Source of the DNA: Acidobacteriota bacterium
Lineage (GTDB): Bacteria > Acidobacteriota > Vicinamibacteria > Vicinamibacterales > UBA8438
Assembly (NCBI GenBank): GCA_009861545.1
Contig: VXME01000061.1
Span: forward strand, 1 to 64,000
Direction of reading: 5' to 3'
DNA length: 64,000 bases
Shown here: positions 41,695-46,165 of the stretch, one piece after another
How positions within the stretch are numbered: position 1 is the stretch's first letter
How the letters are laid out: the number at the start of each line of letters is the position of its first letter
Program-made: the position numbers and the translations under genes
Notes under the pieces: model-generated
Seen by the model: only the letters and a program-made list of their open reading frames with translations
Told to the model about the DNA's origin: nothing
The model's database searches: none

Positions 41695-42615
41695 ATGGAC
41701 CGACTCACGCTCCCGCTGCCCGCCAGAGGCATCTGGTTGCGGGTAAGAAGTCTGCTGGAACCGGCGCGCGAGCGCCTCGGGCCGGAAGCAGGTCCCTGGA
41801 AGATCGGCGGTGGGACCGTGCTCGCGGCACGCTGGAACCACCGCGAGAGCACCGATCTCGACCTTACCGTCAACGCGGGCGCCGCGATCCCAGCCCTGTT
41901 CGCCGGACCCGACGATGATTTCGAGGCAGAGATCGGGCGGCGCGGTGGACACTCCATCGCCTTTGACCGCGACCGGTGCACCATCGGGTTCAGCACCGGC
42001 AAACTGGACCTGTGCGCTCTCGATCCCACGCCCGGTGAAGGCCATGCCGACGCGCTCGTCGATGGTGAGCCGGCTGTCGTCCTGAACAACGTCCAGATCC
42101 TCTGCGGCAAGCTCCGGCGGGCGAACCGCAGCCCCGTGCGTGACGTATTCGACATCGTAGTCGCCGAGAAACTCGACCCGCACGCCCTGGCGGTCGCTGC
42201 GAACACGAGAACCGCACGCGACATCGAGGCGATCGCCGCAGCCTGGAGAGCTTCCAACCCCGTCTTCGCGTACAACGCACCACTCGACATCAGCGGCGTT
42301 CAACCGGAGTTCGCGGGCTACCTGGCGAGTCTCGGGCACGCGGCTGCCGCGGCTTTGACCGGAGCGCTCTACGAACGGGTCAGGGTGTACACCGACGGGG
42401 ACATCGGGTTCGTGGAGACGAGAACCAGGAACGGGATCGAGAGGGAGTTCACGGTCGAGCCCGCTCGCATCGAAGGGGTTTTCGAGGCCAACGGCCTGAA
42501 CCAATACCTGCCGCAGACCGGCGTGCGGCCTGCCCACATCCGTGACCGCATGCGTGCCGCGTGCCGGGAACGCGCAGAGTTCGTGCACGACACAGGGTCC
42601 GGCGCGGCACGTTGA
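41695..42615 (+). CDS. AbiEii/AbiGii-like nucleotidyltransferase, candidate toxin
   Basis: 306 residues. The motif KIGGGTVLAARWNHREST (residues 36-53) followed by DLDL (Asp54, Asp56) is the GG-T...HRxSxDLDL signature of AbiEii toxins in the DNA polymerase beta nucleotidyltransferase superfamily. Later AVVLNNVQILCGKLRR and SPVRDVFDIVVAEKLDP match the conserved helical part with the Lys and the RD(x)FD motif. These enzymes modify tRNA or other targets and cause bacteriostasis until neutralised. The upstream 153-residue gene is the likely partner. A ~140-residue C-terminal region with strands is longer than in many family members. Confidence 0.82.
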   Translation: MDRLTLPLPARGIWLRVRSLLEPARERLGPEAGPWKIGGGTVLAARWNHRESTDLDLTVNAGAAIPALFAGPDDDFEAEIGRRGGHSIAFDRDRCTIGFSTGKLDLCALDPTPGEGHADALVDGEPAVVLNNVQILCGKLRRANRSPVRDVFDIVVAEKLDPHALAVAANTRTARDIEAIAAAWRASNPVFAYNAPLDISGVQPEFAGYLASLGHAAAAALTGALYERVRVYTDGDIGFVETRTRNGIEREFTVEPARIEGVFEANGLNQYLPQTGVRPAHIRDRMRAACRERAEFVHDTGSGAAR

Positions 42616-42708: not shown

Positions 42709-43878
42709 TCAGACCCGCATGGCCGAGTAGACCGCCATGTGCGCGCTCACGATGCGCTGCAGCGCCTCCTGATTGGGCTCCCGCGACCACTCGCCGCGTT
42801 CCGACGTGCCCCCCAGGACGATGCCGTCGCGGCGCGGCTGCATGTGGATGCCGAGGAGCCCGCGGGTATCCCCGTCGGGCGGGTCGCCGCCGATGCCCCA
42901 GTCGACCTCCTCCTGGGGCACGAGCACGGTGAGCTGTCCCTTCGCCGGCAGCAGATCGTCGTCGTCGAAGAGGTCGCGTGCGCCCAGTCCGCTGCAGTTG
43001 ACGACCAGCGCCTCGCTCAACTCCACCAGCTCGCGCGGCTCGGCGAACTTGCGGATCTCGATACGCCCGCCGAAGTCGATGAAGTCGTGGACCAGCGCAT
43101 CCAGGTAGATGGACGGCTCGATGCGCAGTTGGTTGCTACGGATTGCGTAGCGGCTGGGAAAGGGATGCTCCCCAGGTTCCAGCGTGAGCTGGCCGGAGCG
43201 TAGATGGGCGGGAAGCAGCGGCTCCCGCTCCTCCTCGGCATCGTCCCCGGTGGTGCCCGGAGGCGTGTCGCTGAGCGCGTACCGGTCGATCCAGGACACG
43301 CCGAATCTCGTTCCCGCCAGCAACTGCAGCTCGCGGTAGGAGATCTCGACCGCTTCGCGGAACTGCGCGTCCCAGGCAGGTGTCCTGAGATCGTCCTCGA
43401 CCAGTCCCGCGGTGGGGGTGAAGCCCGCGAACGACATGTTCGAGGTCGTGTTCGGCGGCACCGACATCGCGTAGATGGTCACCGCGAACCCGCGCCGCTG
43501 CAGTTGGCGCGCGGCCGTAAGGCCCACCGCGCCGCACCCGATGACCGCCGCCCGGCGGCTGTCGTGGCCGAGGGCCATCTCGGCCGCCATCCGGCCCGTG
43601 CCCCACGAAAGCGACATGCCGGAGCCGCCGTGGCCGTAGTTGTGAATCACGGTCGTGTCGTCGAGCCGGTCGGCGCGCAACACGAAGCCGGTGGGGCGGT
43701 GCGGGCGCAGCCCGACGGTGGTCCGGATGATCCGGTCCCATTCGGCGCGCACGGGCGCGAGCCGCAGGGGCGGTCGCCGCATCGGCGTCGGCGGCGGCGT
43801 CGATCTCGCCGAGCAGCCGCCCAGGCCGGCGCCCACGAGGCCCATGCCGCCCAGCTTCAAGAGGGTTCTTCGGTCCAC
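42709..43878 (-). CDS. D-amino-acid-oxidase-like flavoprotein with circularly permuted motif order, Tat lipoprotein
   Basis: 389 residues from GTG 43878, with GGAGG 5 nt upstream. DRRTLLKLGGMGLVGAGLGGC is a twin-arginine lipoprotein leader (Cys22). Then residues 56-95 hold GLRPHRPTGFVL and VIHNYGHGGSGMSLSWG, the segment that in ordinary DAAO lies near the C-terminus and binds the FAD pyrophosphate. Only after that, at residues 110-130, comes the N-terminal-type dinucleotide motif AAVIGCGAVGLTAARQLQRR. The chain ends with VLGGTSERGEWSREPN plus a short helix, which in DAAO directly precedes GxRPxRP. The order of the fold is thus permuted. It may oxidise an amine or amino acid; substrate unknown. 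Confidence 0.8.
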   Translation of the reverse strand: MDRRTLLKLGGMGLVGAGLGGCSARSTPPPTPMRRPPLRLAPVRAEWDRIIRTTVGLRPHRPTGFVLRADRLDDTTVIHNYGHGGSGMSLSWGTGRMAAEMALGHDSRRAAVIGCGAVGLTAARQLQRRGFAVTIYAMSVPPNTTSNMSFAGFTPTAGLVEDDLRTPAWDAQFREAVEISYRELQLLAGTRFGVSWIDRYALSDTPPGTTGDDAEEEREPLLPAHLRSGQLTLEPGEHPFPSRYAIRSNQLRIEPSIYLDALVHDFIDFGGRIEIRKFAEPRELVELSEALVVNCSGLGARDLFDDDDLLPAKGQLTVLVPQEEVDWGIGGDPPDGDTRGLLGIHMQPRRDGIVLGGTSERGEWSREPNQEALQRIVSAHMAVYSAMRV

Positions 43879-44101: not shown

Positions 44102-46165
44102 ATGCCTCGACGTCATCGCTCGCTCGTCGCTACCGTCGCATCGGCGATCGCGGTTGCCGTGCTTGCCGGCGGTCTCGCCGGGCAGGAGCCCGAGCCGGGT
44201 CGCGGCTATCCTTCGACCGACTGGCCTTTCACCGGCGGCAACTGGTCCAGCTCGCGCTACTCGACGCTGGACGAGATCAACGCCGACACGCTCGATCGCC
44301 TCGGCGCCGCGTGGATGACGCCGCTCCCCGGCGGCGCGGCGTCGCGCTCGACCCCGGTGGTGCAGGACGGCGCCATCTACCTGACGGGCGGCGCCAACGT
44401 CTTCGCCTTCGATGCGCGTACGGGCGAGACCATCTGGCATTGGCAGCCGGACCCCGACGCCGGACGGGTCGTGTCGTGGCAGGGCGTCGTCGTGGCCGGC
44501 GACCTGGTCGTCTTCGGCACACGCAGCGGGGAAGTGCTCGCCCTCAGCCGCGACGCCGGCGAGCTGGTGTGGGCGACGCGTGTCGGGAGCCCGGAGCAGA
44601 CCCGGGGCGAGGTGGTGACGACCGCGCCGATGTATGCGCGCGGCAAGGTGTTCGTCGGCCTCGCGAACGGCGACATCGGCGGGCAGGGCCGGGTGCTGGC
44701 TCTCGATGCGGCGACGGGCGAGGTGGAGTGGATCTTCTACGTCGTGCCGCGCCCCGGCGAGTTCGGCCACGAGACCTGGCCGCAGGACAGCGACTCGTGG
44801 GAGTACGGCGGCGGCGGCGTCTGGCTGGTCGGCACCGTCGATCCCGACCTGGGCATGGTCTACTTCTCCACCGGCAACCCCGTGCCGATGTTCGGCGGCG
44901 AGCTGCGCGAGGGGGACAACCTGTTCACCGCCTCCGTGCTCGCGCTCGACATGGAGACCGGCGAGCGGCGCTGGCACTACCAGGTGGTGCGCCACGATGT
45001 CTGGGACGCCGACATCGCCACGCCGCTGCTGCTCTACGACACCACGGTAGACGGCGAGCCGGTGAAGGCGGTGGCCGCGATGCGCGCCGACGGTTACCTG
45101 TTCCTGTTCAACCGCGAGACCGGCGAGCATCTGCTGCCCGTCGAGGAGCGCGAGGTGCCGCAGGATCCGCACCAGCTCACGGTGCCGACCCAGCCGTTCC
45201 CGGTGCAGACCGAGACCATCCTCTTCGAGTGCTCGTACTGGCGCGACCGGGTGCCGCCGCCGTTCGAGCTCAGTTGCAGCAGCTACACGCCCCCGTCGGT
45301 CGACGAGCAGACGGTGGTGGCGCCGGGATTGCCGATTCCGCGGGTGCGGGTCACGCCGATGGCGTTCTCGCCGCAGACCGGCTACATCTACGCGCAGGGG
45401 CGCGCGCACGTCGGCCGCGCCCGCCGCTTCGCGGATCCGTTCGTCTGGAACACGTCCCAGTTCCACCTGACCCTGCCCGACGCGGTCGGCATCCTGGCCG
45501 CCGTCGACACCCGCACCGGCCGCGTCGTGTGGCGGAAGGAGATGCCGAGCGCGTTCCTCGGCGTCAGCGGTCCCCTCGTCACCGCGGGCGGCCTGCTGTT
45601 CCGCGGCTCGCCCGGCGGACAGGTGGAGGCCTACGACGTCCGGACCGGCGACCGCCGCTGGGCCTTCCGCACGAGCGAGGAGGGGTCGCGGCTGCGTGTC
45701 GGCCCGGCGTCGACCTACGAGCTGGACGGCACGCAGTACATCGCCGTCCCGATGGGCCCCGCGCTCTGGGCGTTCGCGCTCGACGGTACGGTGCCGGCCC
45801 GCGGCGAGCCCTCCCCGGATCCGCCGGTGGACGATCAGCCGGCCGGTCCCGCCCCGCGCGAGACCGACGAGATCGAGACCGCCACGCTGCTCGAGAACCC
45901 GCGCGGCGCGGTCGGCGGCCGGCGCTATGCGTTCGACGAGTACAACTTCAACCCGCTCCGCGCGCGGGTCAGCGCGGGCACGCGCGTCCGGTTCACCAAC
46001 AACGGCGAGATCCCCCACACCCCGGCCGCGCGCGACGGAAGCTGGAGCGCCGGCACGCTGAACCCGGGCCTGTGGGGTTTCGTCACGTTCGACGAGCCGG
46101 GGACGTTCCTCTACCACTGCGAGGAGCATCCCTGGATGGTGGGGGAGATCACCGTCGATCCGTGA
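44102..46165 (+). CDS. Secreted quinoprotein 3 fused to a cupredoxin domain
   Basis: 687 residues from ATG 44102 with AGGGGAGGG just upstream and a signal peptide (residues 7-27). Residues about 35-560 form a PQQ-type propeller (VFAFDARTGETIWHWQP, LALDMETGERRWHYQV, FLFNRETGEHLLPVE). After a Pro-rich linker, residues 600-687 are a plastocyanin-like cupredoxin: His639 in IPHTPA, and Cys673, His676 and Met679 in HCEEHPWM, the complete type 1 copper ligand set. The copper domain can take the electrons the quinone cofactor gains. The secreted ankyrin gene follows after 28 nt. Confidence 0.88.
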   Translation: MPRRHRSLVATVASAIAVAVLAGGLAGQEPEPGRGYPSTDWPFTGGNWSSSRYSTLDEINADTLDRLGAAWMTPLPGGAASRSTPVVQDGAIYLTGGANVFAFDARTGETIWHWQPDPDAGRVVSWQGVVVAGDLVVFGTRSGEVLALSRDAGELVWATRVGSPEQTRGEVVTTAPMYARGKVFVGLANGDIGGQGRVLALDAATGEVEWIFYVVPRPGEFGHETWPQDSDSWEYGGGGVWLVGTVDPDLGMVYFSTGNPVPMFGGELREGDNLFTASVLALDMETGERRWHYQVVRHDVWDADIATPLLLYDTTVDGEPVKAVAAMRADGYLFLFNRETGEHLLPVEEREVPQDPHQLTVPTQPFPVQTETILFECSYWRDRVPPPFELSCSSYTPPSVDEQTVVAPGLPIPRVRVTPMAFSPQTGYIYAQGRAHVGRARRFADPFVWNTSQFHLTLPDAVGILAAVDTRTGRVVWRKEMPSAFLGVSGPLVTAGGLLFRGSPGGQVEAYDVRTGDRRWAFRTSEEGSRLRVGPASTYELDGTQYIAVPMGPALWAFALDGTVPARGEPSPDPPVDDQPAGPAPRETDEIETATLLENPRGAVGGRRYAFDEYNFNPLRARVSAGTRVRFTNNGEIPHTPAARDGSWSAGTLNPGLWGFVTFDEPGTFLYHCEEHPWMVGEITVDP

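Follow-up and report, generated by a model that had tools for sequence, protein, structure and literature searches.

Introduction

D-amino acid oxidase (DAAO, EC 1.4.3.3) is a model flavoenzyme, and both in DAAO and in D-aspartate oxidase (DASPO, EC 1.4.3.1; structures 6rkf, 1kif, 2du8 and 1c0k) the GxGxxG Rossmann motif comes first in the chain and the HNYGHGG motif last. A sequence-only reading of the DNA described here had assumed this order for ordinary members of the family, and we confirmed it in bacterial DAAO-like proteins from Acidobacteriota, Streptomyces, Nocardia and Tsukamurella. More distant members of the superfamily include PF01266 enzymes such as glycine oxidase ThiO, as well as the Proteus L-amino acid deaminase (5hxw, 5fjm), which is membrane-anchored, has an FAD-dependent amino-acid-oxidising fold and keeps the normal chain order. 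Circular permutation is well known in other proteins. According to a survey of amino-acid oxidases (PMC4699246), the role of DAAO in bacteria is largely unknown; the survey makes no mention of permutation.

Here we describe a gene in the window (the whole 64,000-nucleotide stretch of acidobacterial DNA that was analysed) whose product shares with DAAO and DASPO the fold over residues 106-386, the FAD motifs and the carboxylate-binding arginine, but which, judging from its sequence and a structural model, has a rotated chain, a twin-arginine (Tat) lipoprotein leader and a histidine in place of Tyr228. With the bacterial normal-order proteins it has the domain and motifs in common, HNYGHGG included, at about 30-40% identity, but in these proteins the chain opens with GxGxxG and closes with HNYGHGG. 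Since the window protein has neither the DAAO chain order nor the tyrosine, it is not a DAAO in the strict sense. We put the probability that it and its relatives are natural circular permutants of the DAAO fold, all within one permuted family, at about 0.85, the fold and the permutation themselves being near certain. The sequence-only reading knew of no account of such a permutation, and we likewise found no description in the open-access literature of a natural circular permutant of the DAAO fold; as far as that literature shows, the permutation is new in this classical flavoenzyme family.

Results

DAAO motifs occur in rotated order

The gene, which encodes a circularly permuted DAAO-fold flavoprotein of 389 amino acids, occupies positions 42709..43878 on the minus strand, which also carries all the features of the gene given below, and is supported by its ORF, its Pfam and phmmer matches and its orthologues. 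Its stop codon lies at 42711-42709, and the GTG at 43878 is the likely start codon because orthologues have ATG there (MDRRTLLK...). The protein opens with a twin-arginine leader, VDRRTLLKLGG..., and a lipobox ending in C22 (residues 1-22, 43813..43878), in which R3, R4 and C22 are conserved. This is followed by a segment corresponding to ordinary DAAO's C-terminus (residues 44-103, 43570..43749), recognised by phmmer, by the rotated match and in an AlphaFold2 model, where it forms strands 50-60, 66-72 and 75-81 and a helix, 84-102. It holds the GLRPHRP motif (residues 56-62), whose R58 (43705..43707) is equivalent to human DAAO R283 in the alignment after rotation, and the FAD-site motif HNYGHGGSGMSLSWG (residues 79-93, 43600..43644), which is C-terminal in ordinary DAAO and was identified by sequence and phmmer.

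The remainder of the chain (residues 104-389, 42712..43569) is a core that VIA-align equates with DAAO residues 1 to about 269. It begins with the Rossmann GxGxxG motif, here GCGAVG (residues 114-119, 43522..43539; sequence and Pfam), which is N-terminal in ordinary DAAO, and continues with TTSNMSFAGF, a loop on the FAD/substrate side (residues 144-153, 43420..43449) in which S149 covaries with M88. H345 (42844..42846) takes the position of human DAAO Y228 in the alignment after rotation, and LGGTSERGEW (residues 355-364, 42787..42816; sequence) is followed in the AlphaFold2 model by a last helix, 370-385, where the present chain ends. The rotated order proposed by the sequence-only reading, with the leader, GLRPHRP, the HNYGHGG-type motif and GCGAVG in succession and LGGTSERGEW last, can be seen directly in the ORF; the HNYGHGG-type motif was correctly recognised and ordered in that reading, but had been said to start at residue 80 rather than 79. 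The arrangement of the motifs is far beyond chance.

Out-of-order database matches merge when the chain is rotated

When the protein was compared with all PDB chains using phmmer, DAAO and DASPO came out on top, each through two out-of-order stretches. For human DASPO (6rkf), residues 105-382 of the query matched 10-269 of the chain, and residues 51-101 matched 280-333. We therefore made a copy rotated in silico, consisting of residues 102-389 followed by 43-101. This matched 6rkf as a single colinear domain (5-346 to 11-332) scoring 76.9 bits, as against 43.6 + 26.2 for the unrotated chain. The Pfam DAO profile (PF01266; cut-off 27.9) behaved in the same way, rising from 114.2 bits over profile positions 2-292 in split pieces for the native order to 126.7 bits over 2-353 of 353 in one piece for the rotated one.

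Two colinear blocks are swapped, the old termini are joined and the new termini lie at one loop: the chain now starts in the loop just before the GxRPxRP strand of DAAO and ends with the helix just before that strand. The old C- and N-terminus of DAAO are linked by a short, nearly invariant linker, with 22 residues lying between W92, which belongs to the Trp-Gly pair of the HNYGHGG motif, and GxGxxG in 125 of 143 permuted relatives.

The predicted structure has the DAAO fold

The sequence-only reading had suggested structure prediction and structural alignment as a check. An AlphaFold2 model of the window protein, built with 61 sequences (pLDDT 90.8, pTM 0.87), gave back the DAAO/DASPO fold at a Z of about 22. 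In VIA-align, model residues 106-386 matched 6rkf 2-264 in order, with a Z of 22.4 and an rmsd of 2.6 across 254 residues; DAAO chains scored about 21.7 and the next families at most 17.3, with ThiO and other PF01266 enzymes at about 17 and the Proteus deaminase at about 16, and Foldseek was concordant. Residues 44-103 were left out of this match because the aligner is sequential, as expected for a permutant, and in the model residues 50-102 are predicted to fold into three strands plus one helix, as the C-terminus of DAAO does. We also considered glycine oxidase ThiO as an assignment, and rejected it on a TIGR02352 score of 45.1 bits against an NCBIfam cut-off of 250.8.

In DAAO, the GHGGxG and TTSN loops both contact FAD. 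When 143 permuted sequences (effective number 90) were put through a mean-field coupling analysis, the strongest coupled pair overall, at 12.3 standard deviations, was 88-149, which connects these two loops. Met88 pairs with Ser149 and non-Met88 with Ala149, nearly without exception. Residues 88 and 149 each change eight times on the tree and nine times as a joint state; with the well-supported branches alone, significance is out of reach of the sign test. Packing of the HNYGHGG segment on the FAD site is favoured by indirect signs: the segment has a pLDDT of 95-99, the pTM is 0.87 and the strongest coupling falls at 88-149.

The predicted substrate-binding arginine is invariant while its partner varies

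Relatives were collected from public genomes, 80 loci being kept out of 536 relatives and more added through genome and plasmid searches, and every ORF was scored with profiles in both chain orders to sort permuted from normal proteins. This yielded 144 unique full-length permuted proteins versus 17 sequences preferring the normal order, which became 14 once three, being duplicates or a broken gene, were removed. The comparison of motif order among homologues proposed in the sequence-only reading thus finds the rotated order recurring in 144 distinct proteins.

Every one of the 158 sequences compared keeps R58. Its human equivalent, R283, binds the substrate carboxylate, with Y228 as partner, and we used this numbering to place R58 and H345 on the alignment. 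The GHGG loop and FAD motifs are nearly invariant as well. A tyrosine stands at the Y228 position in 11 of 14 normal-order proteins, in all six of the leaderless permuted group and in 27 of 28 of an intermediate permuted group; the position is variable in an alphaproteobacterial permuted group. In the group that includes the window protein it is tyrosine in only 1 of 89, histidine in 61 and Gly or Ser in most others, and the W52 equivalent is Phe in 67 of the 89. The window protein itself has H345 in place of the active-site tyrosine, which makes its substrate uncertain and amino-acid oxidase activity less certain than the fold.

From its motifs, the protein is a candidate for FAD binding and D-amino acid oxidation. 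The permuted family as a whole is likely to oxidise, through its flavin, a compound resembling an amino or imino acid, and oxidation of amino acids as such is reasonably probable for it, while for the window protein the chance of the latter appears to be even. A nearly even chance attaches to the rival view that the window-type branch, while keeping the permuted DAAO fold, no longer acts on amino acids and has been repurposed as an exported flavoenzyme that takes some other substrate, be it an amine, an imino acid or a carboxylate. The loss of the tyrosine and the change at W52 just described speak for it, as does the absence of amino-acid-related neighbour genes; it has to contend with the invariant carboxylate-binding arginine and nearly invariant GHGG loop and FAD motifs, and with sister branches that retain the tyrosine, one of which accompanies a 2-keto-acid decarboxylase gene.

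That gene, encoding a thiamine-diphosphate enzyme, follows a leaderless permuted gene in rhizobia and in Nonomuraea (permuted genes P0003, P0004 and L214:3923-5017 at loci L212, L213 and L214). In two rhizobia, a gene for a berberine-bridge-type FAD oxidoreductase precedes the permuted gene, on the side opposite the decarboxylase. The leaderless permuted gene and the decarboxylase, together with the berberine-bridge-type gene where present, probably form a small pathway; a 2-keto-acid decarboxylase neighbour fits amino-acid oxidation, in which an amino acid would give a keto acid and this in turn an aldehyde. The exported permuted copies have no conserved neighbours in 80 loci, so that these branches give no indication of the substrate. 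Kozakia has a cytochrome c gene directly downstream of its copy; a downstream cytochrome c gene occurs in only 4 of about 141 cases.

Beside the window gene lie genes for an AbiEii-like nucleotidyltransferase-family protein (window 41695-42615, plus strand; Pfam PF08843, 27 bits) and a PQQ-type beta-propeller protein with a C-terminal stretch resembling cupredoxin (44105-46165, plus strand), relatives of which turned up in just 6 of the 81 loci compared.

Tat leaders, predicted export and the probable origin of the permutation

Ahead of the domain, 137 of the 144 permuted proteins carry a twin-arginine motif and a hydrophobic stretch, usually with a lipobox. The seven exceptions comprise four leaderless relatives, two proteins without a readable start and one with a hydrophobic N-terminus that is not of Tat type (L235:1471-2745). 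In contrast, none of the normal-order proteins has a convincing leader, the one RR match lying upstream of the likely start, and their GxGxxG mostly falls 6-13 residues from the nearest Met (30-49 in three). The window protein has the twin-arginine motif, the hydrophobic stretch and the lipobox cysteine expected of a Tat lipoprotein, and would be exported.

Both trees were made from rotated sequences with a comparison set made up solely of bacterial normal-order proteins, and were rooted by assumption between the permuted and normal-order sets. With respect to the normal-order set, the permuted proteins form one clade in the first tree (SH-aLRT 100) and again in a more careful one (bootstrap 100, SH-aLRT 99). 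Since all permuted relatives found fall in this clade, a single permutation event is likely. Together with the merging of the out-of-order PDB matches on rotation and the confident model, this conserved family bears out the sequence-only proposal of a true circular permutation. Tandem-duplication intermediates with two HNYGHGG segments were absent from the collected sequence set.

Four leaderless proteins and L161 are sister to all other permuted proteins (100/98). The leaderless members make permutation and lipid anchor separable, and export is not required for the permutation. The lipoprotein anchor that the sequence-only reading placed beside the permuted segment is seen in the sequence as a leader with a lipobox, though the leaderless permuted proteins do without it.

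How the permuted branch arose can be read in two ways, each of which we rate at somewhat under even odds. The first is that a single ancient permutation founded a bacterial subfamily by taking the N-terminus off the Rossmann strand, which opened Tat export and lipid anchoring to a flavoenzyme otherwise known to be cytosolic or peroxisomal, and that a large branch to which the window gene belongs later altered its active site to suit a new substrate outside the cytoplasm. In the second, the permutation arose neutrally, when the gene happened to be duplicated and truncated, and had nothing to do with export; the Tat leader was then a later addition for unrelated reasons. The mostly leaderless sister branch fits the latter, as does L161, which has a Tat leader within that branch and suggests that leaders may have come or gone more than once; the prevalence of leaders among permuted proteins and the absence of a convincing one among the normal-order proteins weigh against it, and the leaderless branch could equally reflect loss, the tree giving no direction.

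The enzyme may work as follows. FAD would be loaded in the cytoplasm, and the folded enzyme would pass through Tat and be tethered to a membrane; with the permutation, the new N-terminus would no longer lead into the Rossmann strand, and a signal and anchor could be added there with the FAD site left undisturbed. R58 would hold a small substrate resembling an amino or imino acid by its carboxylate, a hydride would pass from substrate to FAD, and the electrons would go on to oxygen or to the respiratory chain, the latter being a candidate acceptor because the neighbour of the permuted gene is, in a few members, a gene for cytochrome c. In the window branch, where the second carboxylate-binding residue has been swapped from Tyr to His, the substrate has probably changed. 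With so large a permuted family it becomes possible to ask whether the order of the chain affects folding and the loading of FAD, and whether an N-terminal export signal was easier to add once the chain was permuted.

Authenticity and distribution of the permuted form

That the rotated order is a misassembly, or two gene fragments joined by chance, is an idea to which the window contig's place in a 174-contig assembly lends something, but its probability is negligible given 144 distinct sequences with the same order, among them single-chromosome assemblies (L023, L097) and complete plasmids, and N-terminal segments that differ among close orthologues mostly by synonymous codons. The artificial joining that would have undone the sequence-only proposal is excluded by this recurrence in independent assemblies.

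The rotated form is spread over several bacterial phyla. The window protein was matched in 33 of 60 near relatives at E 0.001, in some through short Rossmann stretches only, and the permuted profile matched 18 of 199 Acidobacteriota (two of these normal-order), 43 of 200 in the phylum to which a Gemmatimonadetes-labelled genome belongs and 18 of 349 in that of a Pseudohongiella genome. Permuted copies occur in Niveispirillum cyanobacteriorum, Kozakia baliensis, Bradyrhizobium elkanii, Rhizobium ruizarguesonis, Nonomuraea gerenzanensis and, in broken form, Mesorhizobium onobrychidis. Searches of viral contigs and of phage records returned no relative of the permuted protein. The window's own genome gave no full-length match to a normal-order DAAO, and none was found in Pseudomonadota at E 1e-25 with one acidobacterial query, a result that says little about that phylum. 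Where the permuted relatives are annotated, it is only as FAD-dependent oxidoreductases, as the sequence-only reading had noted, and caution is warranted with such genes, which normal-order profiles match just piecewise.

Several members merit separate mention. The Mesorhizobium onobrychidis gene (L216:3920-4983) is annotated as two overlapping ORFs that break exactly inside the GAGVMG Rossmann motif, and may represent a frameshift, a sequencing error or a real split. The non-Tat protein L235:1471-2745 is a very divergent permuted relative from a 1.9 Mb genome, on a long branch of unsure placement. The record labelled Acidimicrobiia (L062, G201) falls in the same phylum set as the Acidobacteriota genomes, and its organism name is probably wrong. 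Finally, 27 of the 144 permuted proteins (for example at L018, L043, L056 and L061), the window protein not among them, carry a conserved extra C-terminal tail with an end like P-x-L-E-x-F-F-G-L-x-S.
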